From: Rhea pennata
Taxonomy: Eukaryota > Chordata > Aves > Rheiformes > Rheidae
DNA: 64,000 bases
Assembly (NCBI RefSeq): GCF_028389875.1
Contig: NC_084666.1
Coordinates: 32,582,308 to 32,646,307, forward strand
Direction: 5' to 3'
The position numbers were made by a program, and so were the translations under genes. Under the pieces are notes generated by a model. That model worked only from the letters and a program-made list of their open reading frames with translations. It did not search any database and had not been told where the DNA came from. Within the stretch, counting starts at the first letter, position 1. Every line of letters begins with the position of its first letter. Shown one piece after another: positions 1 through 41,400 of this stretch.

Positions 1-3000
1 CATAAAAATCAGTCTGATATGAGCAGGAGAAGAGAGTTTGATGAGGAGTCTTTGGAGAGTTTTAGTAGCATGCCTGATCCAGTAGACCCAACTACTGTGA
101 CAAAAACATTTAAATCTAGAAAAGCATCAGCACAAGCAAGCTTGGCATCAAGAGATAAAACACCTAAATCGAAGAGTAAGAGGAAGAGTTCTTCTCAACT
201 AAAAGGCAGAATTAAAAGTACTGGTAGGTTGTAAAGTAATTTTAGATACTGGGGCAAGCTCAACTTTAATAACAATTTTTGTTCTAGAGAATTTACTCTC
301 CATAAATGATACCTTTAACTTTTATTTCAAGAACTCTTCGTTGAAGTGTGAATTCATTTTACATAACAAAGGTACGCAATTTTTTTTGAGTATTAGTTTT
401 CAAAAAAAAAAAAGTAAATGATTTGGGCATCACAATTGAACACACAGTGGATGTAGATATATTAAGACAGCGAACAAACTGCCAAGAGAATCTTTTCATT
501 GTGTCTTCATTTTGAAATTTGATGACTTACTGAAGGATATGCTTCAGTGAAATACAGAATTAGCCTAATATAGTGACCCTCTGGGGAGAGAGGGACAGGA
601 CTAGCTAGCATGCATGATACTGTTGCGGTCAATTAAGATTTAATGATGCCATAAAGCATCAGTGTGCAGAGGAAGATTTCTGGCTAGGAAACATCCATTG
701 GTGTTTTGCATCTTTGAAGTGGCCCCTGAACCCTAACCCTAACCCTTCCCCTCTCCTATAAGGTTATGAAAGTGCAAGCGCTTCTAGTATGTGTGAACCC
801 TGCAAAAGCAATAAAAGCAGACACTCTGAAGAGGTTGTTCACGCAAAGGTGTTCAGCAAAAGAAATCGAGAACAGTTGGAAAAAATAATTAAATACAGTA
901 GATCTACTGAAATGTCTTCAGGTATTTTTTTTTTTTTTTTTTTGAATTTCAGTAATTATTTTTTGTTATGTGGATTTCTTTGTGTAAAGGACCTCTGTAC
1001 TTAGTTGCCAGTATACTATTTAAAAGTAGTGTATTATGACAAGACAGAACACATTTGAGTGTGCAGGTTTTAATTTCTAAGGATGCTATAAACGTTAAAA
1101 ACTGATGATTGGCTGTTAATGGCTGTTTGGTGTTTTCTATAGATTAGATACTTGATTAAAATAATTAAAAACTGGAACTGTTACAGTATAACAAAGAACA
1201 ACCTAGTCCGATCTCACTTGTTGTCCTTTTCCATAAATCGATGAACTGTGCAACAAATCAAACTTTGTTTAGCATTTACTGCTATGTAATTCTAGCATTT
1301 AAACTACATCTTGTACTGCATGCATGTTTTCTTTCTATTCACACTTAAAGGAGCTCTGTTAAATAACACTCAAGTTAAACCTTATCACATAGAAAACCCT
1401 TATGTTTTTACCATCTGCACTGCTTCTTCTTGCATCTAGATCATAAAACAGTCTTTTCATTAGGTTTTGCCAGTACCTTTTTATTTGAAAGATGCAGATA
1501 ATTTAGTCATCATAGCATGATGTAAAGCTGCATTTACTGATGTACATGTCAAACTTCTGCCGTTTAAGTTCTCACAATAAGCAGTTTTGTCATTTGGATG
1601 ATTAAGCAGTCTTCCTCCTGCTGTTTTGTATAGACCCTGTCTTTATTTCTGGTGCGCGTTTTTGTGTTTATCACTGTCTATCCCCACTTTCCTACAGCGC
1701 ATGCTAGGAGAATTCTGCAGCAGTCTAACAGAAATGCATGCATTGAAGCGCCAGGTAATGCATTCACTGCTTAGCTTCAACAGTGTCCTATTATTTACTT
1801 TCTTTTCCCTCTTAGCTTTAGTCCTGTAACTCAGAATGTGTTTCAGGAGTCCAGTGAACTAGTGTACCACATACTAATAGTTCTATTGCAGTACTTTGTA
1901 AATAAGGCAAGAAAAGTTATTTGTATTGTTGCGTATAATGCAGATTACAAACTGCTTTGAACTGCAGTTGTGGAAAACATGTTGATTATATTCCTTGTTA
2001 ATTGAAATAAATAGAAGACAAACAGGTTGACTGTATGTCAAAATAAAACTAATTTCAGTAGGCTCTTTAGGGATATTTAAAAGCTAATGTTACATTTTAG
2101 TAATTGTGGCAAGGGGAGTGATTTTTGATAGCTTTTTGTAGGTTGGAAAAGCCTTCTTCAGTTTAAAAATTTTGCTGAACTACTTAACTGCAGATAATGA
2201 AATTGCAAAGTAACTTTTGCTGTATTGCTTATAACTTCATTACCTTGAATACTAACAAATATGCTTCCATTAAGCTAAGCTGACTTTTTCAAATTTAACT
2301 TTTCCATTCAACACTATCCAAAGTGTATACGTAATAATTAAACTGTTTTGACATGGTCATAATTCTTAATTTTCAAAGGGAAGGAGACTGTTACTAAGCA
2401 TCGTGTTGTCCCTGTACATAACATAAGGAGCTTAAGAGTAACAGGCTTTGTGTGCCTCGGAAGTGATTTGTATTAGATATGTGAGAATGTAGACATATGC
2501 TTGTAGAGGGTGTTGTGTGTGACGGAGTGGCTTTCTTGAATTCTGTCTAGAGTGCTCCTTTTTCATTTTGCTTGTTTTGCAAAAGTATGAAATGTAGTGT
2601 ATAGACTTGAGACCTTTGGCCATCTTGTCTGAAACGTTCAGTGTTCATGAATGCTGATTTTCTACTCTGAAAACAACATTCTGAAGTATACAGTATTCTC
2701 TTTAATAAATAATTAAAGATGCCTTTCAGAACTGCAAGCATTTGTATAAGTTGCTTTTTTCTTAATGTTTTTTTATTTGTATAAAGAATTACTTAAGTAT
2801 GTTTAAATTTTTGTTGCGTTCAGGAAATAAGTAAATATTAAAACTGCAGCTATATAATAGAATCCAGACTAACTGAGGTTCAATTTGCATATGTAATAGG
2901 CAGTTCTTTTTCAGCTAGGTGTATGTTAAGGACTTAAATATTCACTGATTTCTTTCCTTTTACTGCAGAAACTGGTAGTGATCTTTCTATGTTTGAAGCT

Positions 3001-6000
3001 TTGCGGGACACAATTTATTCTGAAGTAGCTACTCTGATTTCTCAAAATGAGTCTCGTCCTCATTTTCTCATTGAACTTTTCCATGAGCTTCAGCTGCTAA
3101 ATACAGATTACCTGAGACAGAGGGCACTGTATGCTTTGCAGGTATGTGCAAAAATTAGAATCTTCTGTATGAATCAAACAAATCTTAGATTCTTTTTTAC
3201 AGTGTAGATTTACAATCTTTTCCAGGATATAGTGACTAGGCATTTATCTGAGACTCGTGAAAAACGGAAATGCGCAAAATCACTGAATTCTGCTACATGG
3301 ATGGCATCAAATTCTGAACTCACTCCCAGTGAAAGCCTTGCTTCTACAGATGATGTAAGTTCTTATTTCAAGTTCAGAAACTAATTTACTATGTCAGCTT
3401 CTATCTTTTAGTTTATATGCATGCTTTTTCACTGGACTACGCACAGTAGTGATCGAAATCCATATCAGCTTACAGAGACCTCTGAAAGCATATAAGAGCA
3501 TCTTCCAAAGTAATTAAGTGGTACAGGATTTTTTACATTAGAAATCGGTGTTTTAGGAACAGACCTTGAAAAATAGTATGAAGGGAGTAAATCTAAAACT
3601 GTTATTCCAAAAGGCCTAAATCTTCCTGTAAGGAAGGTCAGGGCATGTACTCATCAGCCAAATTCCCAAGGAATTCTTGCTGTTTTTCATTTAAGAGATC
3701 ACTGTGCCTCTGCACAGTTTTGTATGTATTTATAGTTGAACTACTTGAAAAAAAAATGATAGAATCACCTAATTGGCTTATATTCTGAAAGTAAGGTTGT
3801 TCCACACACAAACCACAATATGTGGCTGAACAGAATTGTTGGCTTGTTGACATCTCTGTGAGAGAATGATACATTCCTGCCTTATATGCCATTGTTTGGG
3901 GTTTTTTAGGAAACATTTGAGAAAAACATACCTACAGGAGCGTGTCAAGATTGTGAACAAAATGATGCAGACAATGGGAGTACCATGTCTACATCTTCTA
4001 ATTTTGAACCTTTTGCCACTGATGACCTTGGTAAGAATGATGTAATCTATAATACTGTACGTATTACTCCCTCGCTTGCTCTCCTGAAATATCAGCAACT
4101 GACTACACTTAAATAGTATGCTAGGCTTTGATTTCAGTGTGTGACCACGTGTTCTGTAATATAACACTTTAAGCAATTAGCCACTTGTGCAACACTTTGA
4201 CTTGGTCAAGGTGTATAATAAACAGAATTCTAGTTGAGTTATAATGTTTTAAATTTCAAAACCTGTGGCTATGAATTCATTGTTGTTATTGTTTATTTGT
4301 CTTACTCATTTTGAAATTTTTATTTAGATTAAAAGATGTTTTTATTCTAAATATAGGCAACACAGTGATTCACTTAGATCAAGCTTTGGCTAGGATGAGG
4401 GAATATGAGCGTATGAAAATTGAAGCTGAAAGTACCCTTGACTCTGAGGGCTGCTCTAGTAATTTTCAGGGTGCTTCTGCTGCTAAATTAGAAGGTATGC
4501 ACGTATATACATATTTTGCGTAGTTTTAGAAAATAATCAGTCTAAATATCAAGAATCATATAGTTGGCTGACTTGCTATCCTCTTCATTTATGTTGAAAA
4601 CTTAGCAAAGTTTCATAGGATCTTTACACAATGAAGTAAATGTTTTAAAAAGAAAAAAAATCATATTTTGAAATTAATGTTTCTTTAATAGTAATGTTAA
4701 ATGACCTAAATTTGTTTCCCTGCCTCCTTCTCGCACAAGGTCCAAATACCGGTGAAAATGTCTGTGGGCCACAGTCAAATGAAGTTTCTGCTGTTCCATG
4801 TCCTCGTATAGATACTCAGCAGCTTGACCGGCAAATTAAAGCAATTATGAAAGAGGTCATTCCTTTTCTGAAGGTAAGAACTCTTTTCAATAGCATATTA
4901 ACTAGGAGAATAAGAGGAGAACATACATCCTTGCATAGAAAAATGCTTATACTGAAATAATGGGAAAAGCAATAGCTTTTTCATATTGGAGGTGTTTTAA
5001 GTAGCTTTCAAATTTATTCTTCATCTAATGTATTCTAAAACAAATTTTTTTTTACTTGTGCTTTTGTGCACCTACATAGATATATTTCTGTCCCTGAAAG
5101 GTAGGACCAAACTACTGGATTTGATTTTTTGATGAGCCTGTAAATAAAAAAATACGCACTCTACAAACTAAGCCTTTATTCTTATGATGTCCATACAATC
5201 AAATATCTTTCAGGTTCTCATTTTATTCAAAATGATAACTCACATTTTAGCTACAGTTGCCATATATGTTAAATTGCAAATATTGCTGAGGATGTAGTAA
5301 GGGTTAAAATTCCAGAAGCAAAAGGATTTAATAGGAGAAAGAAGTAGTGCATCTAGATTACTTAGGGTTAATGAGTGTAGACTTCGTGAAGCATAGAGAC
5401 ATCTTTGTTTGGAGCTGACCAAGTCAAACAAAAATATTTGAAAATGCTAATGAATGTACTTCTGAAATATTTGCTTCCCTTTAGCAAGGACGCCTGAGGT
5501 AATTTTAATGAGAACTGTTACTTACTATGTAATTTGAGATATTTTTGAAGAATCGCTCAGTAAGTTGTTTATTTCTAGCATTATTTTTTTCCTACTTAAA
5601 AAGTATCTAAGGCAGATGTGAGTTTGTGAAATTATGTGAATGAGGTGAGAAATGCAATTTTTATTGGAGGAGAAATATTCACACCTCATATTCTATGCAT
5701 GATTAAAGAAGAAAAAAGGTCAAGTTGTAAGATGTTTTAAGTCATCTCCCTGTACTCTTTCATAGCCAGTATATAAGCTTAGGCTTGTCTAACAAGGTAT
5801 TTGGTTGACGCTTTCGAACGCTCCATGTATTATTGACATGCCACAGTTTTGGTGTCTGAAGACTTGCCATTTGCTTGCAATTCTGAAAAACTTTAGATAT
5901 CGTAGTGTATTTGGTAGTACACTTGAATACACAGCTGCAGCACATGAAGATTCTTAGTTTGTCCAGATATTAAAAGATGGCATGTACTAATGTATTAGAA

Positions 6001-9000
6001 AAGCGAGACAAAGCTTTGTGTGCCTTGGAGAATCAGTAATTAAATATGTGTATCTGCCATAAATGTGTTCTGTAAGTTTGTTTCATGAGGTGAGTTAGAA
6101 CTCAAGTGAGTTGTTTCTGGGGTGTTTTTCCTTCAGTGCATAGGTGGTGATTTTTTTTTTTTTAATAAATGCCTTCCAATATTTGAGATAACAGCTAATA
6201 TTTTTTTTTAAGTGGTAACTGGTTAAATCTAGTCTGTAATATTTGTTTAGGAACACATGGATGAAATATGCTCTTCTCAATTACTGACATCAGTAAGACG
6301 TATGGTCTTGACTCTTACACAACAAAACGATGAAAGTAAAGAATTTGTCAAGTTCTTTCACAAGCAACTTGGCAGTATACTGCAGGTTAGTATTTTTTTT
6401 TTTTTTCAGTGTTGTTTTTTGCAACACTATTATAGTTTGGATTATTGGCAACAGGCAAGTTAGCTTCCCCTAACCTGTATTTTACAACTTCAATACGATA
6501 GCTACTTTTCTCCTTTAGTGTTGGTGCTGTGTAATGAGCATTACCTTGTTTCCCTTAGTCAAAGGTTTACCATCCACAGAACGTTTTTTCCATTGCTGTA
6601 ATGAGATGTATTTAAAAATACTGAGTTCACATAATGTATGTGTTGTTCCTTGGAAGCAGACATGTTTGCACATTTTTAAAAAATTTAACTAGTTTGAGGA
6701 AATGTTCTGCTATTTACTTCAGGCAGACCTCTGTCTGGTGATAGTCTTTGTGGACATCTTGTGCAAGTTACTAAAAACAGGTTACTATTTTTGGATAGGA
6801 ATGTGGAGTTTAAATCATTAATCTGTAAGTTCTTTCATGACTACAGATTCTATTTAAAAAATGTTTAAGACACAACACTGTTTAAAAAAAAAAGAAAATC
6901 TTTATACATTGCTCTTTATTATATACTTTAATCCTGAGATTTATTAGGAATACGACAAGTACTTGGTCTTTGAACTTCTGGAGCCCTTTCCAAAAGCTAA
7001 AGAATTATTTCTCTTTGCAGGATTCACTGGCAAAATTTGCTGGTAGAAAATTAAAAGATTGTGGGGAGGATCTTCTTGTGGAGATCTCTGAAGTGTTATT
7101 TAATGAATTAGCTTTTTTTAAACTGATGCAAGACCTTGACAACAACAGTATTTCTGTAAAGCAGAGGTGTAAAAGAAAAATGGAAACAACTGAAGTCATA
7201 CAGTCTAATGCTAAAGAGGTTTGTTCAATTATACTTTCTGAAAATTTAGTTCTTCTGAATTTCCTAAATATGCCTTAAATTTTAATTACTTCATTTTATA
7301 CATTTTTTTTCACCATACACAGTTAGCGATTAGTACTATGCCTGTGTTATAGTATTTTGATTGTGTAGAAACATGAACTGGTTTTCCTCAACAGCTGTGG
7401 TGTCCTTTATTTTTAAAGATGTCTATTTGCATGTTTTCTGTCTATATTTCAGAAGAAATGTGTTTTAATGGTTGTATAGTCAATTGGAACAGTCAGTTGA
7501 CAAAATAATGTTAATATTTGGAGCTATTGAGTAGTCAGAATATTTAAATTGACATATTGAGTGCATTATTTTGTCATGCCCCCTGAGTACATCACCTCTC
7601 CAGCTGAGCCTACATCTTCTTTCGATGGTCTTTTACGACCCATCTTGTTCGTAAGACTTCATTCTAATTAGTTAGTCACTGAAGAGTTGGTTGGTTGTGA
7701 TGCGTAGGAAGTATGACTTCAATGCATTTGAGTGTAAAATACATACTCTTAAGTAGGATTTGAGACTATAGTACATATTCTGTTCTTAGAATGTAATTTT
7801 TTTGATTGGTCTTAGCACTTTAAAGGTGTTGTATCATCATCTTTAATTGCAGTACTGCAGTGTTTTAGGAATGTGGCTTTTTAGGTATAGTTTAAAAAGA
7901 AGTGCCAAACAGATGTTCATTTAATACTAAATCATACACAGTCATGAAGTATGCTGCTTCTTGTGAAGTATAAGTGTGACCTCAGTATCTTTTCAGCTTT
8001 TTTTTAAAAAAACAAAACAACAACAACAAAAAAAAAGAACACAAATACCAAGAAAGAACTCAACTTCTTTATGAACTTCATTTGTCTGGCACAGAACTGA
8101 AGTACTGTATGTAGTTTTAAGTCTATCATCAGCTAAACTTCAGGATACGTCAACTTAGATATACCAGTAATATGGGTAATGTGAGATGAGACTCTGGAGT
8201 GTCTTGTAAAGAGATCAAAGAAATAGTGTGAATCTGGAAGGGCTTGGACTTAACTTCACTCCTATTAAATCTGGAGCAGCTCCTTGTATCTCAGTTTCAT
8301 AAGGGATCATTTATACAAAACCCTGAGAATGCTTGGAGCCAGCGTAGATCTGGCAGTTCATCTCATTGCCTGAAAGAGAGAGAATTAGGGTCAAGGTCAG
8401 TGTTTGCATTGTTGCAGTGAAAATTTCAGTCAGATTTGGAAGCGTCAGAGATGAGATAGAGCTGGTAGGTCCTGCTTATTTTGTACAGACCCGTACAAAT
8501 GTCCCTACTTGATCTTCTCACAGCTTTCAGAACTGGGACCCTGACACAGGCACATCTGATCTTGCTTTATGTTGCAGCTGCTTTGAAGCCAGTGAACTAA
8601 CTACTTTGGGATTTGACATAGAAAAACACAGCTCATCATGTTGAAGAGAGCTGGCATTTTGAATTCTGTATGTTTAGTATAATCCAACCACAGGCTGGAG
8701 AAATACCCCATGCAAATGTGACTTCTTTAAATAGAAAAGACTAGCAGTTCTTAATATTTTACAACGCTGAAGTTGTGAAGATGTCTGTGTAAAGCTCTCT
8801 CATGTTATCAAAATTCCTGTAGATTACTGCAGACTTGAGATAGCAATTCTACTTAAAATAGGCGTTTCAGGCAGCCTTTCATGAACAGTCAGTTTGGTTC
8901 AGTATTTCAAAGTTATTTTAGTTTAGAATTGAAGACAGTTTGTGTTTCTTTTAGGCAAAAAATGGTCTCCAGGTGGATGTTTGTTCATCTGCTGAAGATG

Positions 9001-12000
9001 TCGATGAGGACAAAGTATGTTTATGCTTCTTAACTGTCTCTATTCCTCAAATAATTTCACCGATCTGTTATTCCTGCTTTTTTTATCATATAAATCTAGT
9101 ATCCCTAAGCAGCTCATTTTTTAGTATTTATAATTTTTTTTTGTTGTTTATTCCAGTTTAATACTGCAAAGCTGCTGCCTGTGAAAAGTTTGCATTTTTT
9201 CTTTTTAAAAAACAAGTCATCATCTCTCAGGAAGCACATTCAGATCAGCAAAAATAGTATTGAATTCAAGACTTTTCTACTTATTGTTGATGACCTGAAT
9301 GTGGAATGAGCTTTGCTTTAGGAGTGATTAATTAAAAAGGACAAATTTTGTTGAATGTTGTGTAACTAGAGTGGAATACTTGTTTGTTCTGAATGTTTAT
9401 TATTGGGTTTGTTCTCAGGCCATCCTCTGTAGTTTCAGCTCAAAGCACTGAAAGTGTAGTGACTCCTTGAATTAAACAGTAAGGACAGTCAAGTTCTGTA
9501 AATAGAGAGCTAGTACTTAACTACTTTTGGTTATGTTTTATTTAATGTTATGGAATAAATTGTTATTTCTTTTAAAGATGAGACAGATGTTTGGAGTTGG
9601 GGCACATGATGTTGAGGTGCTGAGCATCAAAGACTATGCGTTCTGAATATTAGATATTAGGAACTAAAATATCTTCCTTTTCTCTTTAAGTTCATTTTGA
9701 AAATTGCTGAAACATCATTGTGTTCAAGGGGAAGGGTGATGTGAAGTGGTGTACTTTTTTGCTGTTCAGCTTTCTCCAACCAAGGGGAAGATGCAGCTGA
9801 TGTTTTAACTATAATGTTGAGTGCTTTCCTAAATGGACATAGTATGAGTTCTTGGTTCCTTCTTGGGCCTCTGTCATTCTCTTTGGAAGGAAAAGAAGTG
9901 CAAATCTGCATATCAATTGTTACAATTCCTTTAGTATGGAAGACTTCTGCAAGAAGATCTGGTGTTAAACTCAGGGCTTTACTTGGGGTTCATACCGACT
10001 GAGCAGAATTTTCTCACTCAATGTGTTTAGCAAGTCAGTCAAACTGCTGAGTAGCTATTGCCAAAGAAGTTACAAGTGATTGGGAATATTCCTAATTTGT
10101 ATCAGAGGTCATTTAAGAGTGGCAATAAAATCACTAGAAAGTAATAATGCAAGTGCTAATTTATTCCTGTTGATAATGACAAGAAAGAAGTTTTAAAGCT
10201 AGCATGCTGATGCTTGCTTTGCGTAATGTAAGCCCTTTCAGACAATGAAATACTCATTCGTGATGCACTTGATAGTTGTGTCTGAACAGTTCATGATCTC
10301 TGATAGCTGGTTCTGTTGCTCTATTTCAGGAGTAGCTTTGTCACGTTCCTTCAATAGCCTTATGTTTCCTTCTTAAACATGAGTTGCTAGTATGTAGATT
10401 TCCGATTTTGAGAAACAAAAGTGACTCTTTGAGGTAGGAGCTCTAACTTAATCTTTAGAAAAACAAACACAAAATTGCACTGTATTCCTTGCTTTCTTAG
10501 GACAAGGATGAGACCCAAACTATTAAACCAGTACAGGACCCAGAAATATATGACGGTAATGAAGTTTCTGAAAATACTAGATCTGATGCTTCTGATCAAG
10601 ATGAAGATGAGGAAAGTGAAAGAGGTCCAGTGTCAATAAGTAAGCTCTTTTTCTAGCTTGTTACTTAAAACTTTCACTGTAGTTTTGACCAACTACTTTT
10701 ATAACAGAACTTACTTGAAGTACAGTTGTGTAGTACTTCCTCACAAATTTTCTGGTTGGTTCTTCTCCAGTGAAAACTTTTTTCAAGTAATATGCCTCCT
10801 AGCAGCTTGTTAAGGCTTACATATTACAATTAGAGGAGCTTTTTCTTTCTTTGTAATCAGTAGATCTGTAGAAGATTATATGGGAATCAGATTCATGGTT
10901 AGTTACATATCCTGTCTCAGCTAAGTCAGATTTCTCAAGTTTTGAACTAATTGATTTGGAAGCTGCTGAAATTTCTGCAGTTCTTCAGTTAAATGCTGAT
11001 CTTTGAATATGTTTTTACCTAAACTAATGTACTTCTGTAATTCTTTTTGTCTTATTTGTCTTCTCACAACGACTATTCCTGGCTTAGTTTTCTCTTATAT
11101 TTACATTCTTCACACAGACTTGTTTAATAACCTGGCTGTTTCATGCCACCACACTGGTAGTAATTGGTTCCACCACAGAGTAATATGGTACATGTGGAGA
11201 AAAGGATCCATGAAAGTAAATTGTCATCACCTTATTTTCAAAGAAAGTTTTCAAGTAAGAGTCATAACTGATCACTGCAATGACTTCTTAGATACTTTCT
11301 TCCAAAAGGGTTTTGATTTTGCAGCTTGACTCTTATTCTGTCAGATGCATTAGGAAGAGTTCTTAGAAAAATCCAACAAATTGCGACAGTATGTAAATAT
11401 AATCTTAAGATTTTTTTATACCAATTTACTTCAGGTTTATCAAAAGCAGAAACACAAGCTCTGACTAATTATGGAAGTGGAGAAGATGAGAACGAAGATG
11501 AAGAAATAGAATTTGAAGAAGGACCTGTTGATGTGCAGACATCGCTACAAGCCAGTAGTGAAGCTGCAACTGAAAACCAGCAGGTATCACCAAAGTTTTA
11601 AACACAGGAAGAAAAACAAGCCAGTGCATAAGTTTACATAATTTACCTTTTAGACAAATATTTGTATATAATATTGCAGTTTTTCTTGTTACACTGTTTT
11701 CAGGCTAACAAATATACAGAAAGGATACAAGAAATTGTAGGATGGCAATAACTGCTATAAAATAAAACTTCTTCTGTTCATTCCTCACCTGAATTTATTA
11801 TTGGTAATAAATTATAATAAATAATAATTATAATTATAATATAATAAATATTATTGGTAGGTAATGCAGTAAGGTTGGAAGGGACCTCTGGAGATCATCC
11901 AGTCCAACCTCCCTGCTCAGCAGGGTCACCTAGAGCATGGTAGACAGGGTTGCGTCCAGGTGGGCCTTGAATATCTCTGGAGAAGGAGACTCCACAACCT

Positions 12001-12936
12001 CTCTGGGCAACCTGGTCCAGTGCTCCGTCACTCTCACAGGGAAGAAATTCCCCCTCACGGTCAGGCGGAACTGCCTGTGCTTCAGTTTCTGCCCTTTGCT
12101 TCTTGTCCTGTCACAGGGGACAACTGAAAAGAGTTTGTCCCGTCCCCTTGACACCTTCCCTTCAGGTACTTATCCACACTGATAAGATCCCCCCTCAGTC
12201 TTCTCTTCCCCAGGCTGAAGAGGCCCAGCTCTCGCAGCTGTTCCTCATAGGGCAGATGCTCCGGCCCTCTGATCATCTTTGTCGCCCTATGCTGGACTCT
12301 CTCTAGTAGCTCCGTATCTCTCTTGTAGTGGGGATAATAAACTAATGTTGCTGTTTGGCTACAATTATTGTTTGTTTTTAGAAAGTTTCTGCTATAACCT
12401 CTGTTCTCTAAAGTTGATAGAGGAAAAAAGACTAAGTAGAGTATGATAGATACTTTACAAAATTTTTTCTTGGGTGTTTAATTACACCATTCACTTCCCC
12501 CCCCCTTCCAAAATGTATATTTGCTATTAGGTAAATCGTTAAAAAGCTGCAGCAGAAAAGATGATAAACTTTCAATAAAACATCAACAAGAAAACATTCT
12601 TTCTTTTTGCTTGTAGATATGAAATTCTAATTGGGCTTTCTTTTGCAGAAGCCTTTCACTCTTATATTCCGTATTCCAGCATGTCTTTGATATGTCTTTA
12701 TCAGTATATGTAATACATTTTTCTAGAACTGTGGTGAAATGTTATTCATTATTATTGCCACTTCATTATTAGTTTCCTTAGAAGTTCTTAGGTGTGTGTG
12801 ACATGGTCTTGGAGACTTATTTACTGGAGAGCAAATTGATTTCAGGACTCTCTTGAAATTCTGATTTACTCAAAAGTTATTAACATTTAAGCAAGAATGT
12901 AATTGGAGTATTTCACGCTTTAAAGGCAAAAGCAAT

Positions 12937-12968
<32 letters not shown>

Positions 12969-15900
12969 CTGGTAGGATCAGAGTATTTACCTAGGAATTA
13001 TTAGAGTGAAAATGAAAATAAGTGATTGAATAAAACACGTCATTGTTAATAATTTCTTAAATTATGCATGACCAGCTAATGAATAAACACTAGGACTTCT
13101 TAATTTTATTTTAAACTAATTAAGAGACAAAAGCATGGCACAAGTGTACAGTGTACTTCTGTTTAGAATGAGAAAGTAAACTAAACAATGAGTTGTGAGA
13201 CTGATTGGTAGAGTTTGTTCTAACTACTTTTCTCCTTCCTCAATAGACTTTTAACCAAGAATTGAATAAGACAAAAGACAGTGAGATTTTGTCATCTGAA
13301 CAAGAATCTGTTAAAGGTAAAACCCATTCAAAATTTGTGCAGTAGTTGAGAAATTAGTCCATTTTCATAAATTAACATACTGTGAGAATTTTATTGCACA
13401 GACTTTGTAATGAAAACGTATAACAAGGAAGTTGATCAAAATTGCAACAGTTTATTGGGCTATTTTTTGTCTTTTTTGACTTTAATATATCTGTATTGAT
13501 ACAGAGATAGTAAGCCTTTTAAATAGAACATAATCTTATGCATTTGATGTGTGACAATAGCAGGAATGTCAGTTATGATTGTTGCAGCCATTTGCACACA
13601 TTTGTAGCTATATAATTTATTTGAGGCTATTATAATGTTTTGATGTTAGGATTTGTCTAGTATCTTTCTCCTACTACTACCTTTTGGCGATTGAAATCAC
13701 TTGGTATTTTAAAGATGTATTTGTGTAACACCGTATTAAACCATGACTAATATCAAACCCACCATCCCACTGGAAAGGTGATGGGATGGAGTTTATTCTA
13801 TGAAGCTTAACTTGGCTTTTGTATGAGAGTCAAAAGTCGGAAACATTACCAGGTGATATGAATATTATTTCTGTTATAACTGCTGTGACCTTCTGCTCTG
13901 TCTCTCTTGCAGCTGCTGTTTCTGTATTTAACACTAGACCATAAATTTATAGAAGCTGGACTTTTTGTTTGTTTTTTGTTTTTAAGCTATATTAAATCAG
14001 ACAATCAGATACTGTCTTGTGATAATTACTGATACAAGTCTGTAAAACTCTTTATGTGCAAGCAAATGATGTTGTATTTCTACCAGCTGTGTTGATCTGA
14101 GATAATTTCACTGATCTGAATTTACTTTCATTGCTGATTTGCGGCTTTGAATAATGATTTTTAAAAATAATCTTCTGAGTTATGCTCAGAATCTTTTATT
14201 ATTTCTACCTAATTGAAATGTAACTTTGTGGTTTTAGGCGAACAAGATGTGGCTGCTGTTTTACCTCATTACCTCAATGTCTTGGAGAATACACCACCTT
14301 TAACAGTCAATAGTTCAGAGTCCTTTATAACAAATATCAAAACAGAAGAATCAAGCTCATCTTTACCAGTCAATGAAACTCAGACACTAGATTCAGCATG
14401 TGTAGGAAGCAAATCATGTACTGGAAGTTCTGAAAGCTCCATGGCTGGCAGCCCTGATACAGAGTCACCGGTATTAGTGAATGAATATGTGCGTAACTTC
14501 AGTTAAGATGTATTCAAGAGAAATGACTTTTTTTTTTCCCCCTATATCAGTCTTTTGCCTAGTTTCTAGATTTGCACTATTTTCATCCATTAACTTGATA
14601 TGGACATGGTTTTTCAATGTACTTATTTAATAGTCAAAACCTCTGGTTTTGGAGTGGAAAATAAACCAAAGTAGTGCTATTTTCTTATGTCATTAATTTT
14701 ATTAACAGGAAGCTGGTTCTGGAAATGTTAGTCAAAAATCTGATGAAGATGACTTTGTGAAAGTTGAAGACTTGCCCCTTAAACTTACAGTGTATTCAGA
14801 GGTATTTTACTTACTATTTATGGGTTTGTTAGTTGGAAGTGCACACTATAAATGTCTTAATTATCTAGACAATTTAAGAATTATCTAGAATTCTGAATTT
14901 GGTTTTGTCTATTTACAAAGGCAGATCTAATGAAGAAAATGGCAACAGAGACCCAGACCAGCAGTTTGTGTGATGAATTACTGGATGGTGGTGTAGCTCA
15001 AGATCAAGAATTAGTAGGAGATGCCCAAACTCTGAAAGAACCTGGTAAAGATTATTTTATTTTCTAAATCATGTATGCCTATTGGGAAAATATCCTAAAA
15101 TGGTTTAGAGTTTAAGTATCTTGTTATCTCTGACTAAAGGAAGAAATTATGGTGATGCTGAAAGTATTATTTTTCATTATCTTGCATTAGAAAATGATAA
15201 GAAGGGGTTTTGCTTTTTGTGCCCTCTGGTTATTTCTGTTAGAAGATTCTAATAAATGAAAAATTGTACAAATTACCATATTTTAAATGTATGGTGTAAC
15301 TTACTGGCTATGCAGTAATGTTTTCATTTTTTGTTACGAGAGCTTAGATTTAATAATATTAAAAACTTCTGTTGATAGCATCTGACTGATATAATAACAT
15401 CCCATGTAGTTTGCTGACACACTGTTCAGTCTTTAAGTTTATAATAGAAAAAAATGTCAAGAGACTTCAGAATAGTAAGATACCTCTCTGTGGGAGAAAA
15501 AATAGTTTTTGATACAAAGCATGCCATGAGATTGGAAATACTCAGTATGGAGCACTAAAGAAGTAAAGATTTCCATTGACTTTCATGAAATACTATTTCT
15601 GCAGCTACAAAAACTTGATTGTATAGGTCAATGAAAAAAATTTTTCTTCATGAAGTGTAGATACTGTTAGATGTTACAATACTAGAGGCTTCTGCTGTAC
15701 CTCTAGGCAGGTAGAATTCCTTAGTGGGCAGGTATGGCTACTTCTGTCAGCATAGCTATATCAGCCTCACAAGCAGTATAAGCTGACAGAACACTCTTTT
15801 TCTTCATGCAGAGGTGATGATAGCACTTTTTTGTGTTTGTTTTTTGGGTGTTTTTTTTGGTGGCTGTTGGGTTTTTTTTGTTTTTTGGGGAGGGGGTATC

Positions 15901-19686: not shown

Positions 19687-19801
19687 AGGATGAATCCAAA
19701 TTATATTAGAAGTACAGGATGAATCCAAATTATATTAGAAGTACAGGATGAATCCAAATTATATTAGAAGTACAGGATGAATCCAAATTATATTAGAAGT
19801 A
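19687..19801. repeat. Tandem repeat, 29-bp unit, 4 near-perfect copies
   Basis: The unit starts AGGATGAATCC and ends TTAGAAGTAC. Copies lie at 19687-19715, 19716-19744, 19745-19773 and 19774-19801, the last cut by one or two bases. The copies I compared are identical, which suggests a recent or length-variable minisatellite. It lies between the unassigned ORF and the 3' end of the TFIIE-alpha gene. Confidence 0.95.
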
Positions 19802-20164
19802 AACTTATTTATGCTACCAGAAGAAATTGCTCCATCTGGGAGGAAGGTGGAGTAGCTGATTTCTTAAAAATAATTGTGACATTTTATTGGATTGTTTATC
19901 TCATTACAGTAATGGAATGATTCATACTTCAAAACTAATTACAGTATTCACACTAAATCTAAGCATTAAGACAACAGAAAACCCACAGTAACTTTAGGTT
20001 GCTTTTGTTTGTACTCCTTGTTCAAAATGCTAACACTATAGCAAAAGTCAGTCCTTCACTGGTAGTTTTTGAAGAACAAATCAAATAGTTTAACTCATCT
20101 TTTCCTCATCTCAAAAGGAAGTGTCACTTATCCTGCACAAGCTTTTATATTCAGTGTAATAGTG

Positions 20165-20170
20165 TTTATT
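20165..20170 (-). terminator. AATAAA hexamer overlapping the stop codon of the TFIIE-alpha gene
   Basis: On the minus strand the gene ends GAA TAA AC, so the stop codon is embedded in a canonical AATAAA. If used, the 3' UTR would be only a few tens of bases or shorter. The next minus-strand AATAAA lies near 19881-19886, giving a more ordinary 3' UTR of about 280 nt. Which is used cannot be told from sequence. Confidence 0.35.
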
Positions 20171-23100
20171 CAAAGACAGACTGGAACATTTCTTGTCCTA
20201 CTTTTACGTAAGCTTCTCTCTCTTCATTTGTCATGAGACGCACAAGCTCTGGATTTTCATTAACTTCACTATATGAGTGAGGCTGACCAGCTACCATTAA
20301 AATGGGATCTAGGGTTTCCTGTTCCTCCTCCTGTTCAAAGTTGCTGCCAACCACTTCTGTTACTTCTGTTCTTGAATGCTTAGTGTCTTCCTCAGATTCA
20401 CTCGTGTTGCTTTCTGATTCAGGTAGCTTGCTTTTGACAAGAGGAGCATGCTCAGTGCCAGAAGATGACTTGGATTCATGGATCAGAAGAGTCTTGATAA
20501 TTTCACTATCAGTGACATTTTTTTTACCACTTTCTTCAATTTCTTCTGAAGTATGTACTCCTAATGCAGAATATCAGGTGTTAGAGGCATTGATAGTAGC
20601 CACATAACTATGGTAATCACAGGCATCCTCCATAACACAAATAAGATGAATTTTCTACTCTACATTTTGTTTACTCACGCTTCAGAGTTCTCTTAAAATG
20701 CCTGCATTTGAGAATTTTACAGTAACAGTTGTCGCTTTAAATATGCTGTCAGAATGAGCCCTTTTCAGGGCATGGTGCCCTGAAAAAAATGGCTTAATAA
20801 TACCACCTAGTATACCTAATCATATACTAGTCTAAAGGCTATTTTTCAGAAGCGCTAAGGCTGACAGTCACTAGTGCAGAACTGGAGTAACTGTGTATTC
20901 TGAACCAAGCCCACTACCTTTTCAATAGGAACCCTATGCTGAAATATATTTGCCTCTAAAGCTTACCAGCAGTACTGTTGGTGGCTGCTGTTGCTCCTTC
21001 CACAGTACTCTGAGACATCCAAACAGGTTGTTCTTTAGTTGCTTTTTCTCTTTTCTTCTTGGGCTCAGAGTCTTGAACATCAATAACAAAGTTTTGGATG
21101 TACATATTACCAAAAGAGGAACTCCTGTTGGCCCATTTTTCAGGTCGTGTGCTAGATGCCAGCATGCTTGAACATGCCTTATGATCAAAGCTGAAAGAAA
21201 TGTTACCCATTTTTGAGAGCTCAAATACAAGCCTCAGTCAAAAAAAATAAAAAATAAAAAAAAATTGGTCAGCTGCCTAGCCTCTCCATTTTAAAACAAT
21301 TTTCACTGTCTCCATTATCAGAGACCAGTGATTCTGCACCATGTTGCACTTTCTCTTCTGTAGCGCATGCCTGCATGAAACATAGTCATAGAGTAACATT
21401 TTCTCACAGGAAAGCCTGTGAACAATATTAGCCAAAGGAGCAGAAACCTGGAGAACTATGTACTCCTTGAAACAGAACAGGCAGCAAAAAAAGAAGTCCT
21501 AAATGCAAACCAATGATTTAAAAAGTCATAATACAAACATCTTCGTTAAGCAGCTTGCGATCTTATACACTAGGCAGTACAGGACAACAAAATAGAAAGT
21601 GAGCTGTAAATTAAGTGTTCAACAAAGGTTTTACAACTGGAAAGTTTTTGGGGATAGGAGTTGTATTGATCAAGAGTTCCAGAGTTGCATTTGTACCTCT
21701 CTGATAATTCTGGGATTTCTGTAGGCTGGGGCTCCAGCAAGTCGTATGGCAGTACAATGTCCTCAGTCTCTTGCAATAGCAGAAAGATAGGTTCAATCTG
21801 CTCATTGAATCTTGCTAGCAAAGTTCGAGCATCTCGCTTGGGAAGTGCTGAGGCGTCCTCCTCTACTTCAGTACTGCAATAAGTGCAGCGGAAAGTCTCT
21901 GCAACATAATCCAGATTAGGAATTCCCATATAAGGGAAGAAAAAGTTTAGCAATAATTTGTAAAGAAATCCACAGCCTGGACAATTATCGACAAGTTCTG
22001 AATTCTCTAGACTCAAAATCCATTTTGTTCACATCATCAAAGGAACTTATGTTAATTAAAGGCAAGCATAAGAAGGGAGAAGACATTTGCAAGCATAGAT
22101 GGCATCTGTTAATGGTACTTCTGAAGTTCGAAAAGACTCATTTAGAGGCAAAGCCTATGCTTGTGTCACAAGGAAAGAGTTTTAAAGCGTGTGTTTTACT
22201 AGAAAAAAATATTAAAATACAGAGGGATAGTTTTTCCAACTGATAGTTCAATAGCTTCACATTGCAATTTCAAGATGATCATATAAAGTGTTGTTCATTC
22301 TTCCTGGCTCTGACATCCTTTCTAGGTATCACAATCCATGTGTTAACATAGTAACTGCTATTAAAAAAAAAAAAAAATTTTTTTAAACCATACTCTATCT
22401 AGTTCAGTCTTTGAGAAGAGAAGCTCCTGAGTTCTGGTGTCATCTCTGCTATGGATTTGTTGTGTGGCCTTGGGAGGTGTCAGAACTTCTGTGTTTCCAG
22501 ATCAGTACAGAAGTGACAGAAACTACTTCTCTGCTGCTGAGTTGCATTATTTTTATTACAGTGGGGGGGGGGGCAGAGTTTTTATTAAAGCTTCACCATA
22601 TCTTCCATCAGAAGAGCTGAAAATGCATATGGATTAACTAACATTCAAAACATGAGTGTAAAATGAGTAGTGTATTCTCATTTCCATATGAGGAAATGCA
22701 ACACAGGACTTGGTAAGTAATCTTACCCAAGTTAGCGGCTAGTTGATAGCAAAGCTGAGGCCAGGATCTGAATCTCAAGCCCAGCTCTTAAATTCCAGAT
22801 TATGCCTCCTCTTGCTCAGCCTGTTTTACAAATACAGCTTTTTCTCTTACCCTTGCCTCCCAGCTTCTTATCCCGGTTCATGCCCTTGTCCCACCAGCAA
22901 ACGAGGTATATCCTACCAAGCATGGTTTCATTGTGAAGGTCATACAGGAACCACCTCCATGCTGTCCAAATTATTCAAGGTAAGAGCAAGTAAGCAGTAA
23001 ACATACCTGTAAATACATCAAACAGCTGGTTGACTTCCAGGTCTGTGTAAGTGCTGGAGCAAGATGGACATTTGAAAGATGACCTGGTAGTTGAATCTCG

Positions 23101-23454
23101 CTCATCTGCTTCTATCTTCCGGCGTATATGATCCAGTTTGTATTTTACCACATCCACCAGCACCTTATAGTTGATATAATAGTAATTGTGCCTTGTGCTC
23201 TTCCCATTAGGCCCTGTTTCAACTCGCATACGCAACTTGACAAATTTATCTGCTTTGAGCGTGTTGAGGATGGTACGCAATTGCTTACGTTCATATTTGA
23301 GCAACTGTAACAAGTCATCTTCTTTGACACAGGGGTAGCGGATCAATATATCGAGGGCCAATGAGTACTCTATTCCATAGAAACCACGCACCATGTATTT
23401 GGCTAGACGCTTTAATGCTGCTGGGACCTCGGTAATGACATTCTGTTCTTCCAT
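20166..23454 (-). CDS. General transcription factor IIE subunit alpha-like protein (diverged GTF2E1 paralogue)
   Basis: TFIIE-alpha joins the RNA polymerase II preinitiation complex, recruits TFIIH and helps promoter opening. Coding exons are 23454-23007, 21898-21697, 21190-20967 and 20560-20166, 1269 nt or 422 residues plus TAA, against 439 in human GTF2E1. Residues about 14-100 form the winged-helix region ([30 protein letters not shown]). A zinc ribbon has Cys129, Cys132, Cys154 and Cys157, the same numbering I recall for human, and is split by intron 1 just before Cys154. [16 protein letters not shown] follows. The C terminus keeps an acidic patch and [11 protein letters not shown], ending FQSVFE. 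A splice-acceptor-like TTTCAG lies six bases before the ATG, so a non-coding 5' exon is possible. The middle (exon 3 and early exon 4) is strongly diverged. No stops or frameshifts were seen, so it looks functional. The location differs from human GTF2E1, so I call it a paralogue and give no symbol. Confidence 0.88.
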
Positions 23455-23679: not shown

Positions 23680-24329
23680 ATACTGAAGCCGTCTTCTGTG
23701 TAAAGAAATCATTGAGGAAGATTAGGTTAGAACAAGTTCGCAATGTTCCTCTTTACTGAGGGCAGTGTAGTTAGCTTTCATGTCAAGGTCTACCCAAATT
23801 AGCTGTTTTCTTTCACAATCATCCAAGTAAGATCTGAAGTAAACACTGCATGAACTAGAAATTACAGCACAAGGAATAAATGAAGCACAAAATCTTTAGG
23901 TTAATTCACAAAGAGCGTGAAGTAGAGAAGACTTTTCTCCCCTTTTTTGGAAAAGCCATGAGAGGTATTTGGGCACCTCTTAACTTGCTCTTTGCTTTTT
24001 AACTACTGGTCGCTGTGATCAGGCAAAAGCCTGACTGTCAGAGCACAAGATATCGCGTCTCGTCCGATGTTGACCTCGCTCAGCACTGTGTGCCTGGGGC
24101 TGAGCCTGCTCAGGCCATGCAAAATCACCAGGGAACACCGGTAGCAGAACGTTTTGCTCCTTGGCACCCTTCTACGTTGTAGAAATAGGGCCTTTGACAT
24201 CAACCAGTTCCTAAGCCCATTAACTGGAACGTGACCGTGCCGCTCCGATTAAACTGTCATTACCATTCCTTATTAAGGAGGAGCGGAAGAGCAAGAAATA
24301 ATTTCTCAGTTAATTGCTGCATCCCAGTT

Positions 24330-25080
24330 CGCTTGCTGCGATTTCCTGCGGTAACACCTGACGCAGCAGGCTGCGGTCAGATTGCTCCGCCGTGAGCCAC
24401 GAGCGCGGCGGTGAGAGCGGAGCCGCCGCGTGAGGCGGTGGCGCGGCAGGAAGGCGGTTTGTGGCACAGTTACACTGGTGTCAACACGTGCTGCCGAGGG
24501 GCGCCTTGCTCAAGCCCTGCTGCTTAGTGTTTCATTGCTATGTGGCACTTCCAGGTGACCTCCAAGAGAAGTCCCAGTTAAAACGGACAAAAAGCATTTT
24601 GCAGCAGCACCAGCAATTAGTCTGTAAGTATGTTTGCACCTGACAGGGGAAGCGCTGGTTCTTTTCAACATCCTTTGGTTACCTAAACCAAATGTAAGCC
24701 TGCCGGTCTGGGGCTAAAGATGACAGCTAAAAACAGAGAAAGTCATAGGATCACATTGCGGGGGATACCGGCAGGGCCTAGGAGAGGGGAACGGCGCCCC
24801 ACTGACGGGAGAGGGGCTGGTGTCCTGCACGCTGTGGTGATCCTGGCAGAGAGCAGAGGTCAAGGAAGAGCAGCACGCGCTGGCAAGGCCGAAGCCAAAC
24901 GCTTCGTCGCTCCAGGGGAAGCTGTGGCTGGCCTTGCTCCTTGCTTGCCTCGGCTGCGTAAGAGCAGAGCCCCGGCCCACAGAGAAACGCAATCCTGAGT
25001 TTCCCACAGGAAAGGCGTGTGTGTGGGGGCGCTGGGGTAGGCTCTCGGCCCAGGTATTCTCTAGACGACTCCTTATCTCA
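24330..25080. promoter_or_regulatory. GC/CpG-rich block, candidate promoter of the TFIIE-alpha-like gene
   Basis: CpG-dense sequence (for example around 24385-24455, rich in GCGGCG and GCCGCC) rises from AT-rich flanks 0.9-1.6 kb upstream of the minus-strand gene, with a second GC-rich part near 24760-25060. It fits a housekeeping-type promoter with a spliced 5' UTR, consistent with the acceptor seen just before the ATG. I could not settle on the matching donor. Long frames through the block on both strands are composition effects. Confidence 0.45.
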
Positions 25081-34645: not shown

Positions 34646-35372
34646 CTACCAAGGGCTACAGGGATCTGGACATTCCCGCAGGTAAGTCTCTGTATGACCA
34701 TTATACACCTCCATCAGCGTTGTGCACACCGTCAGCTAACAGGGCATGGGAAAAAGGAAAAAAAGAAAGCCTCATTATAGGAATAAGTGAAAAGTTGACT
34801 CAGATTCTAGCTGAAGAGCTCAACTAAAACCATCTCATCTAGCTAGCAGAGTCTAATTTCTAGATTTGTATAAAAAGTCAACATGCAATGAGAAAGAGCT
34901 CACATCCTCAGCCAAAAATGCTACCTGCACTGAAAATATTAGAAAATATTAACTAAACTTTGATTGAAAATCTTTCTTCATGCCCTTTGAGTCTTTTCTT
35001 TTTTTTAAGCTTCCAAACCTCAAGTTCGTCAGATTGCAACATCTTCTGTTGCAACAAGAGTGTTAGTGTGCCTAAACATGAGGTATATTAACTTGTTTCA
35101 CATGAAATCTGAAGGCATGGATCACATGATAATTCAGATTAGAAGTGTGCTCATGATGTCTCAAGTGCAACTTCCCCCTCAAACCAGGGTCAGCTATGAA
35201 GTCAGACCAGGCTGGTCAGGGCTTTAAAGCCATAGTACCTTTGATAAAACATTATTCTAACACTTACATTTTCCTTTTATGATGTTACTTGGAAGTTTTT
35301 GTTTTTACATGTGTGTTTTTACCCAGCAACCCACTTACCTCTCAAAATTTACCACTAAATAGCACAGTAAAT

Positions 35373-35412
<40 letters not shown>

Positions 35413-38400
35413 GTTAAAAAAAAAAAAAAGGCAAACCTAACTCAAACCAGTGTATTCTTCATCTTCCCTTCTCATATAGTGAAGCACAGTGCATCTGAAT
35501 ATAAGGAAGAACTTCCCTGTGAGAGTGACAGAGCACTGGACCAGGTTGTCCGGAGAGGTTGTGGAGTTTCCTTCTCCGGAGATCTTCAAGGCCCGCCTGG
35601 ATGCAACCCTGTCTAATATGCTCTAGGTGACCCTGCTGAGCAGAGGGGTTGGACTAGATGATCTCCAGAGGTCCCTTCCAACCTTACTGATTCTGTGAGT
35701 CTGTGAAGCATACAGATGCCTCTAACCTTTCCTGCTCATTTCCATGCTCCTTCTTCCTTTTGCCCTCTGACTCTTTCCAGTGGAGCTACTGTGCTTTCAT
35801 TGTGATCCAGTTCTAGTGGGTATCAGGCTGAGAACACGTTCTGCTCGATAGCTTTCTTTCAAAATGAGCAGGTCAAAGTTTGGTGAAAGGCTGCCACTAG
35901 TTTTTAGAAGCCAGAGCAGATTTATTTTTCATGCTTAAATTCTAGCTTCACAGGTTTTGTACAATATCTTAAACTTCACTTACAGTACAAGTTCAGCCCT
36001 CCTGTAAGTTGGTAGAATAGTGTCGTAAAACCTGAATGTAGTACTTTGACCATCTCCTTATATATACATTAGATGTCTGTCCCTGCCCTCCCAAATTTGG
36101 AAAAAAAAAAAAAAAAAAACAGCATTACCTTATTGAGGACAGGCTTTGTGGAGAGAACATCATAGATACTTGGTAATGAGATATTCTGAAATAAAATAGT
36201 GCGCTGATGTTAGTGGACATTACCTAGCTCTGTGTGTAAATGCTGAGAACCACAACTTTTCTGATGTCTCATTTAGGTAATAAGATAAAGCTTTAGGAAT
36301 ATCTTGGTATCTTCTGATCTTGAGACAGAAGAACGTGGGTTGAAAAAAAAAACCCGAGCAGGCTAAATCTCACTATAGCATGTGAAACTTGAGTTTCAGA
36401 GTCTGTTGCCTGTTAGTTGTTGAATTTCACTAGCAATAAAACAGTTCAGGAAACACTGGTATTTCTCAAGTTGTCTTCAGGTTTATCACTCTATATATGC
36501 TGCAGAAGAAAACACTTCTAGAAAACCTGTATTTGAATAAAGTAAAGCAGTGAAAAGCCTCAAGCTATGGAAGGGGAAAGCGTAGAACTAGAAAACATCC
36601 GTGCAAAAAGCCAGCTGGTACTCTACTATACAGAAGTGTAGACAATTGTCACAAAAACATTAACTGCTTTTGTCATTACAGCTCAGATTGCAAATGCCCT
36701 GATTATCCCTGGCTGTGTTAGATCACTTCTATGATGTAACCTGAGTTAAGCATTTCAAAACAGCAAGATCAAGTATTCAGAGGATGTTTACCTCTTGCTG
36801 TGTCTGGTTCAGGCACTTCATTGCAGGTGTTCTACGATTATCCAAGATTAGTGGAGGCTTCCAGCGGTCATAGTTTGTTTCTACCACATACCATGTGCCT
36901 TTCTTGATATCAAGGCTGAAAGAGATATACATGAGTTTGTGTTTCACTTACCTAAGTAAATACTCTATGAAACTAACTTTTTTAGGCCTATTATAGGTAT
37001 ATTTCAGTGATATTAAAAAACTGAATTATTGCACAAGAGAAGTCACAAGAGACACAGGGCACAATCATCAGTGGAACCTGACCTCTTCTGGAAGAGTCTA
37101 GTCAGGTGAAACATACTTACTCCCAGATATCCAGAGTAGCTGTTCTAGAACGAGTTATCACACAGCCTTCTCCGGAATTTTTTCCGCCCAATATAAAGTA
37201 AGCTGGAGCCAACAGTCTTGTTTTTGACAATTTGTCTTTTGCATCCTGGTAACTGCAGATAACAATCAAGTTTTAGACTATTAAATGCTATAAATGGTTC
37301 AAATACTGAAGAACTAGTTTCAGACACAGGAAAAAAATTGGGTAGTTAAACCTTTCTTCCCCCTTCAGACATGTACACAAAGGCTGTATCATAATGAAAG
37401 AACACATTTCAGCAAAGCTTCTCCACTCAGTTTGTACTTAAAGTAGGGTTGTCAACAGGTGTTCCTTGCACACTTTTTCTTTTTAAACATGAGAAACAGG
37501 AATAAAATTATGATGTACTCTAGCAATGTGACATTCCACCTAATTCATTTACTCTATCAGAGCTTTATTTCTGATTACTTCCTACTCTATACTACTAACT
37601 GTTGGATATGCTAGATGTAGAATACTTTTATGTCTTCAGATGCTAGTAGTGTCATTAAAAAAAAAAAAAAACTGAGGATTTTTAAAGGAAATCACATGTC
37701 ATGTTTCCCCTTCCCCACTGCTGACATGAAGGATCAGCAAAGACAGGAATTATTTAATGTTAAGACCAAGAGAAAAATACTTGTATCATTAGATACTTAA
37801 TATGAGACATCTACCTACAATATTCATGCCAGTCAGGAACAAAACAAGTCAAAACAGTGAAATATGTGGGTGGGGGGGAGAGGGGAAGTACAATACCTTG
37901 TAGCGTTCTCTAGTACTGTTCTGGTAAGAAAGCCCATCCACACACCATCTCTTCTACCAAGAAACCATTCAAATATTCCTGCAAAATACCACTGGTTATA
38001 ATATTTTCTTTTCATAAGCTTCTGTCATGTAAAGAAATGAGCATAACTCACCAATATAACCACCATCAAGGCTGAAACGCTCATTCATTGTTAGCGTGAA
38101 TGTGTCCTGAAAAGTATTAAACATATCAACCCTTATCCATTGCCAGCATTAGAATCAGTAATAAACAAAGGCAACATTTTAACTTACATGCCAATCCTGC
38201 TTTGCGTTCATTAGATTACTAGCCTTTGAGTAAGGGGCTGCAAGAAAAAGCCTACACCAAGAACCAGTTTGTTAATCTCTGGGTAAATAGAAATGATAGT
38301 TTACAGTTTCTTCCCTTACACAGCAATCTAATAATCTATGGGTTTATGCTAGCAAGTCAAGCCTACAGTGATTTTTCTTTTGGACTTTGTTACATCACTG

Positions 38401-41400
38401 AATTACAAGTTTCTCAGACCCCTAAAAACTAGTCCAATTTGAAGATGAATTCTTAAGTTCTATTTAAGTAAATTCTGATATGTTAATGCTGTTCGGATGA
38501 GCGTACAGCCATATACGATTTGAATTTTATGTTGCAAGTAGTGCACATTAAACTCTAATCTCAATCTTGTCTAACTAGAGGGTTTGCCCATGTCCTCCTC
38601 TGTGGCATGCAGCTATACTGGATCATTTTCAAGATGGAGTCTCGTCAATTTATTGGGAGCAGAAAACAAAACCGGAGTTTATGCCAGAAATTAACTCTAT
38701 TATGAAAAGTGTCAACAGTGAGCACATAGAGAAGATAGAGCTGCGTTAAGTTGCGGCACCTGGTACAGTTCTGTACGTTAGTTTTTAAGGTCTAGATAAA
38801 ATCTAAATTTAAAGTGCCTAAAAATCAATTATCTCTATCTTGGAAAAGGAGGTCTACATTATATTTAAAACAGCACTCAAGTGTGCAGTTTCTACCCTGG
38901 GAACACAGCAATTTCCTTGTATTTGCTAGCAAGAAATACCAACCACTTGAGGAAACATTTGTTTTGTATTCACTACTACTGTTTGTCCATTTAGAATGCA
39001 ATGTTTTTGAAGTGCTCTTTAAGAATGAAATAAATTCATAAACTAAATGAAATGGCTGTTTGAACAATTTCCTTTTATAAGAAACAGTGCAGCACTTTTT
39101 TCTTCTACCTTTCTTCAAATATCTGTATTATGTATTGGAACAATTAAGAGCTCAGGACAAAAGATTAAAGGAAGACAGTTTATATCTTAAAGGAAAGTCT
39201 GAAACATTATTAATTCATTGACAAAAAACCTTTCATACTTACTGGTTTGACTCCAGACACCATGCCAATATATCCTGCAAAATTTGTAGACTTAAATACT
39301 GTTTTGTTATTTCTCTGGAAGTCCAGGTTTACCACTATAGGCTTCAGTTCCCGAGTTACAGTCCAGGAATTATTTTTAACATCCCACCTGCAGAAGATGG
39401 CACAGTGTTTGAAACTACTCCAACCCATAGCTTTTAACATTTCCAACCACAAAATACCTATTTCCTGTGTGTGATGCCTGTCCTTTGATCTCACTCGCTC
39501 AGAATCCCAAAACCCACCACCACCAGGTAGTTACCTAAACAACATAAGCAAGGACCAGCTAGGAAGTCTTAATGCATATGCAGTCTATGAAAAGAAAGTT
39601 TTGTGCAAACCAACAGCACAAACACTATTTGGAATTAAAAGGCACCAACGGAGTATCTGGCTTATTTTGGAAACACACAGCTTTATTCTGCTCCTACTGG
39701 CAAGCGGAGGCAGCTAGAGGTGCGGCTTCAGTCACTGAACTACTGATTCTTGAGAGTGTGTGTAGTCTGTACTGGCTGACCCAGCCACATCAAATTCTTA
39801 TTTTTCAAAGGGAGAGGACAGAAACACATCTCATTGTATTTGTTTGTACTTAAGGGAAGACCCAATTCTAGTTTGTAAGGTACTTTTTCTGCAGAGTGTG
39901 TATTTGAGGAGACGCTGAAGAACACTTTATTAGGTAAATAAATTCTCTGGAAATAAAATTCTAGGAACAACTTTGGAAAATTGTTTCAATTTTCAGGGAA
40001 CATGTCCCCAGTCTTTCTGACAAAAGGGAAGCAGTTCAACACACAGCTAATCAAGGGATAGATTGAGTCACAGTTGTCCATATTTGAGTTTTTGTTAGGC
40101 AAATGAGAATTTTAATGAAGTCGAACATTTATATTCCAACTGGGCGTTAAGAATCATCTGGGTAAGCGATGTTACAAAATACACTGGGATAATAAAAGCA
40201 GAAAACTGAAATACCCAATTATGAGGCATGAACTGAGAGCACTAAAAGAGAATCTAGTACTAATCAAAAAATTGCAGAGTATTCAAAGGAAGATTAAGTA
40301 AAGACAAATACAGTGTCATATCTAAATAAATGACAATGCTAGATCAAGGGAATACAAACCACTGGCTTCAGAGGAGAAGTAATTAATGATGGAAGATTTC
40401 TGTAGAGCATAAAGTAACTATCTGAGAAAAGCACTGTACACCAAAATTGGTACTTCTGTCTCATCACTTAAGAAGGTATATTGAGCCTTTGAGTTAAGGT
40501 CACGTAGACTGTTCTTTGCTACAAAAATTCTAGACAAATTTAATTGTAGCCGGAAAAGCACTAACAGTTAACATAACTGCTTTCCAAAGTCATTCCTGAA
40601 AAATGCAAAGCAGTATGACATGGTATCAGCAGAAAAACCTTTTGCTTATTCTAACACTTTTTGCAGTATACAGCGCAGAACTGCTTGTTAGTTTTCAACA
40701 ACATCCAATTCATCATTTAGTCTCAAAGAAAGTATATATATAAATTAGAAGTTCAACTGTCTCTCTCTCTCTCAAAAAAAAATCCCCCCACCCCAAAAAA
40801 ATCAACAAACAAATGTAACCCACCTAACAGACACTGTCTTAGGCACTTACCCAAGAAAGAGTCCAAAATCCAAGTTTCTGGCATGGTACAGCTTCCCTGT
40901 ATTAAAACAAATAATAATAATTACACATATATATAAAGTTTTGTAAAGAAAGGGACATAAGTTTCAGCTTAGGAAAATAATCATATATGTAGTAAAAATA
41001 CCATTGTATAGACTTCTTTTGTATAAAGATAAAAAAAAGCAGCTTTTTTCTTTCTATGAAATATATGTTTTGCTATAATTGAAATCAAACAATCTCTTAA
41101 ATTGCTGTCCAGCTCAGCATAAAATGCTTTTCATATCAACTTAATACATTGATAATAAATCTAGGTTTCTATTTTTAAAAATGAACCTTCTGTAAGGTTC
41201 CCTCTGAGAATCCTTCTGAAGTTTCCTCCATTGGAACAGGTGCAGACAAGGGCTGCTAAAGCAGTTACGAGAATGGAGGGTCTGTTTTAAGAAAGGAGAT
41301 TAGTTTTCTCTAGGATGACACATTTGCCACAGTTAGAAACTAGATGCAAAATGGACTGCACTGGAATCACGCTCAACACTGAAAAAACATCAGATGTTTG

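Follow-up and report, generated by a model that had tools for sequence, protein, structure and literature searches.

At the junction of PCM1 and ASAH1 in a bird or near relative lies a complete, intron-bearing gene for TFIIE-alpha (20166..23454 of the window, by which we mean the whole 64,000-nucleotide stretch of DNA analysed). The gene itself is confirmed; judged from its sequence, it is probably a functional second TFIIE-alpha, a paralogue of GTF2E1, whether the duplication was early or late. This reading follows from an unexpected place combined with an unusually changed sequence. In vertebrates, TFIIE-alpha is usually counted among the general factors encoded by a single gene. If a remodelled second copy has indeed been kept, TFIIE would be added to the core factors that have specialised paralogues (TBP, TFIIA and the TAFs), and the TFIIE–TFIIH contact as a regulated step would become a question that can be asked in a living animal.

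Structure and identity of the gene

The four coding exons (Table 1) join into a single frame on the minus strand, read from 23454 to 20166 (1269 nt, 422 codons and the stop, which is included in the coordinates of exon 4), and there is no internal stop codon. All three introns begin with GT and end with AG. A retrocopy is rejected because these introns have been kept, as the initial annotation had argued. That annotation had also described a complete 422-residue protein with a winged helix, a zinc ribbon at the human residue numbers and a C-terminal [11 protein letters not shown] block; each of these elements was found. In a phmmer comparison with PDB sequences, a chain named General transcription factor IIE subunit 1 (E 2.8e-151) aligned end to end (query residues 2–422 with residues 2–439 of the chain). 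The TFIIE-alpha proteins among the matches are those of human, to which this chain of 439 residues belongs, and of yeast.

The extended winged helix was recognized by the Pfam model TFIIE_alpha (PF02002; 101.6 bits, cut-off 22.9), and the acidic C-terminal domain of metazoan-type TFIIE-alpha by TFIIE-A_C (PF11521; 97.9 bits, cut-off 22). The window protein, human and yeast share all four zinc-ribbon cysteines (C129, C132, C154 and C157), which fall at the human residue numbers, the alignment of the window protein with human being gapless over residues 1–196; the general zinc-ribbon model PF08271 was reported for human TFIIE-alpha and not for the window protein. The human counterpart of the C-terminal block is VAGRPFSYSEV. 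Structure prediction for the exon 1 product alone gave a mean pLDDT of 52.9, too low for use. No relatives were found in viral contigs, genome contigs, plasmids or phages, as expected of a vertebrate gene.

Table 1. Coordinates of the TFIIE-alpha gene and its neighbours in the window
Feature	Position	Strand	Remarks
PCM1, 3' part	2938..14503	+	Flanking; convergent with the TFIIE-alpha gene; PCM1_C matches
TFIIE-alpha coding exon 4	20166..20560	-	Acidic C-terminal domain (TFIIE-A_C), [11 protein letters not shown] block, stop
TFIIE-alpha coding exon 3	20967..21190	-	Linker; 35% identity to human
TFIIE-alpha coding exon 2	21697..21898	-	Second half of zinc ribbon (C154, C157) and region beyond, up to about residue 217
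TFIIE-alpha coding exon 1	23007..23454	-	Residues 1–149 plus the first base of codon 150; first half of zinc ribbon (C129, C132) and extended winged helix
CpG-rich stretch	24001..24600	.	Upstream of the TFIIE-alpha gene; putative promoter or 5' noncoding exon
ASAH1, located exons	34649..41688	-	Flanking, upstream, same strand as the TFIIE-alpha gene
FRG1, located exons	59063..60980	-	Next gene past ASAH1

Genomic neighbourhood

The placement between PCM1 and ASAH1, noted at the outset, is borne out by matches to both flanking genes. All three candidate PCM1 open reading frames that were tested matched PCM1_C (profile positions 1–59, 413–464 and 489–577). The exons of ASAH1 and FRG1 were placed with probes for these genes, the ASAH1 piece 41653–41688 by probe only. 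When joined, the ASAH1 pieces were named acid ceramidase, with 148 of 214 aligned residues (69%) identical to chain 6mhm_B (human acid ceramidase, beta subunit), and the FRG1 pieces were named Protein FRG1, with 102 of 112 (91%) identical to chain 2yug_A (a mammalian FRG1, probably that of mouse); both identities come from exon pieces trimmed by eye and are slightly flattering. A probable first exon of ASAH1 lies near 51 kb, judged by eye from the list of open reading frames.

Could this nevertheless be the only GTF2E1 of its lineage, either a true orthologue that moved with its introns to the PCM1–ASAH1 junction, or one still in an ancestral place that mammals left? Among the alternatives to a second copy, this one is the strongest. 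In its favour, all the domains are retained and no further copy was seen in the window: in a search for a second TFIIE-alpha fragment, scores outside the gene's own exons and strand were at most 47 among the 14 best places listed. Human GTF2E1 lies beside RABL3 in 3q13, a setting that differs from the one here, and bird GTF2E1 would be expected at the RABL3 locus, which counts against a sole orthologue, as does the divergence described below; we consider this explanation unlikely. A pig study lists both GTF2E1 and RABL3 in the selection signature of one breed (PMC7318759). A RABL3 probe detected no remnant of that gene in the window, its best score (42) being below all the maxima for shuffled probes (46, 48 and 44).

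Divergence from human GTF2E1 and age of the split

The comparison with human GTF2E1 (PDB entries including 5iy6 and 5gpy) covers the whole length, including the winged helix, the four-cysteine zinc ribbon and the acidic C-terminal domain. The window protein is 17 residues shorter and 58% identical overall (244/420), with 75% identity in the core, residues 1–196 (147/196). By exon, identity amounts to 73% for exon 1 (109/149), 74% for exon 2 (50/68), 46% for exon 4 (59/129) and only 26 of 74 residues for exon 3, the most changed part, in agreement with the earlier observation that divergence is greatest there. Values of 58% and 75% seem low for a bird orthologue of human GTF2E1, going by the identity generally expected of one. 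By analogy with FRG1, which stands at 91% at the same locus, where the beta subunit of the lysosomal enzyme ASAH1 stands at 69%, 75% would appear low for the core of a general factor in an orthologue; beside FRG1, the overall value and that of exon 3 speak against a sole orthologue.

How long ago, then, might the two genes have parted? One possibility is that the gene was duplicated at the DNA level within this lineage and then diverged rapidly. This would be a special case of the second copy, differing from it in age and not in function, and we regard it as possible but doubtful. Apart from the low identity to human, it draws on the Pfam scores, which are higher for human than for the window protein (TFIIE_alpha, 128.6 versus 101.6 bits; TFIIE-A_C, 114.8 versus 97.9 bits) and would fit faster change on the window copy, bearing in mind that the human sequence may be in the seed. 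A relative-rate comparison of the core with yeast did not point in this direction: at six sites only the human residue matched yeast, and at ten only the window residue did (two-sided P 0.45), so that by this measure there seems to be no sign of faster change on the window copy than on the human one, yeast being the sole outgroup and conservative changes being able to arise twice. With all the differences placed on the window branch, chance would be expected to give about 3.6 matches to yeast, against the ten observed (P 0.002), and with all of them on the human branch, 3.1 against the six observed (P 0.08). The underlying model is crude: BLOSUM62 frequencies take no account of site constraint, and such constraint makes coincidences more frequent. 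The lack of a RABL3 remnant is a further point against a recent duplicate.

From the excess of ten matches over 3.6, it appears that the human branch has probably changed as well, and hence that the genes parted long ago or that the window gene is the true orthologue; a core without rate excess and changes on both branches are indeed what favours a sole orthologue. On balance, an old split from the human gene, with loss in mammals, is more likely than a recent burst of change. The young, fast-evolving spare copy that was originally proposed is thus weakened by the yeast comparison, whereas the Pfam scores still lean towards it. Within the preferred reading of a second gene, a more speculative possibility is an ancient TFIIE-alpha of pre-amniote origin, lost in mammals and kept in birds or reptiles, that with its remodelled TFIIH-docking tail would, in a tissue such as the germ line, form an alternative preinitiation complex.

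Constraint on the coding sequence

The core of yeast Tfa1 aligns with that of the window protein, with 58 of the 183 compared sites identical (the comparison omits alignment column 1 and every column that lacks a yeast residue); its best-scoring stretch stops at or before window residue 199, and a match to the C-terminal domain was unreported for the yeast chains. Among these 183 core sites, those at which human and yeast agree were changed in the window protein in 6 of 54 cases, and those at which they differ in 38 of 129 (Fisher P 0.008). This distribution has the look of protein-level constraint and fits purifying selection on the folded core.

A pseudogene on its way out is very improbable, and is rejected on account of the intact frame, without stop or frameshift, the concentration of conservation in the folded domains, and simulations of drift. 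When neutral drift was simulated to the observed core divergence, the frame was stop-free in 2 of 300 runs, or in 17 of 300 if half of the change was assigned to the window branch. A very young neutral copy could be stop-free by chance (53 of 300 runs at 93% core identity), and would be compatible with the count of stop codons taken by itself, but the domain pattern appears to speak against it.

The TFIIH-docking tail

The window TFIIE-alpha would be expected to pair with TFIIE-beta, sit on Pol II and recruit TFIIH like an ordinary TFIIE-alpha. Its linker and its acidic p62-docking segment seem to have been remodelled. Human TFIIE-alpha docks on the TFIIH subunit p62 by way of Phe387 and Val390, which occupy two pockets of the p62 PH domain (PMC11266705). 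The acidic string of the window protein has one Phe (366), with Glu at +3 where human has Phe387-x-x-Val390, and the Pro of the Asp-Pro that follows this Phe is at +11 and not, as in human, at +7; the Phe-x-x-Val is thus not kept in place, in an alignment that here crosses a poorly conserved region. The TFIIE-alpha family as a whole is not defined by this p62 motif. The same paper quotes, for binding to the p62 PH domain, a Kd of 3.82 uM for the yeast Elf1 tail, which is without that Val, and of 45 nM for TFIIE-alpha (PMC11266705). Because the Elf1 tail binds about 85-fold less tightly, it is plausible that the window tail docks on p62 more weakly than the human one. With such a remodelled docking segment, TFIIH recruitment by the window TFIIE-alpha may be weaker, or differently regulated; the altered acidic tail would seem to be the most telling functional change in the protein.

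Relation to other core-factor paralogues

Vertebrate paralogues of core factors offer a comparison, TBPL2 (TRF3) and TFIIA/ALF in particular: like them, the window gene would be a spare beside the general factor. Roles in the oocyte and testis have been published for these two (PMC7755920, PMC5006001). Elsewhere, GTF2E1 is named as a predicted microRNA target in a budgerigar study (PMC5896495) and comes up in connection with a comparison of winged helices (PMC11293857). In the part of the open-licence literature that was sampled, neither a second vertebrate TFIIE-alpha nor TFIIE paralogues nor the location of bird GTF2E1 was seen described, a weak negative.

Promoter, 3' end and other features of the locus

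The CpG-rich stretch upstream of the gene has a GC content of 0.51–0.58 and a CpG observed/expected ratio of 0.72–1.05 (three 300-base windows inside the stretch), and an acceptor-like TTTCAG lies a few bases ahead of the ATG. Together these suggest a promoter of the gene's own and a noncoding first exon, both of them putative. A second CpG-rich region (27901–28350; GC 0.57–0.63, CpG observed/expected 0.73–0.98) lies between the TFIIE-alpha gene and the located ASAH1 exons; no gene was identified there, and one open reading frame within it had no Pfam match.

Between the exons located for ASAH1 and the probable start of that gene is a 333-codon open frame on the plus strand (45427–46425) with a match to RVT_1 (47.8 bits), a reverse-transcriptase frame of CR1-like appearance. 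Taken together with the order of the genes, this retrotransposon frame agrees with an origin in a bird or near relative. Pieces resembling it were seen by eye near 11895–12477 and 35371–35613. A 140-codon open frame, also on the plus strand (18608–19027), lies between the 3' part of PCM1 and the TFIIE-alpha gene and ends at a donor-like CAG/GTAAAC; it gave two weak PDB matches only (best E 0.48) and none in Pfam at E 0.1, and is possibly a chance open frame.

At the 3' end of the TFIIE-alpha gene, a polyadenylation-like AATAAA (20165–20170, minus strand) overlaps the stop codon, and further such signals start at 19888, 19600 and 19490. Directly downstream of the gene is a tandem array (19683–19801) of 4.1 copies of a 29-base unit, with 98% matches.
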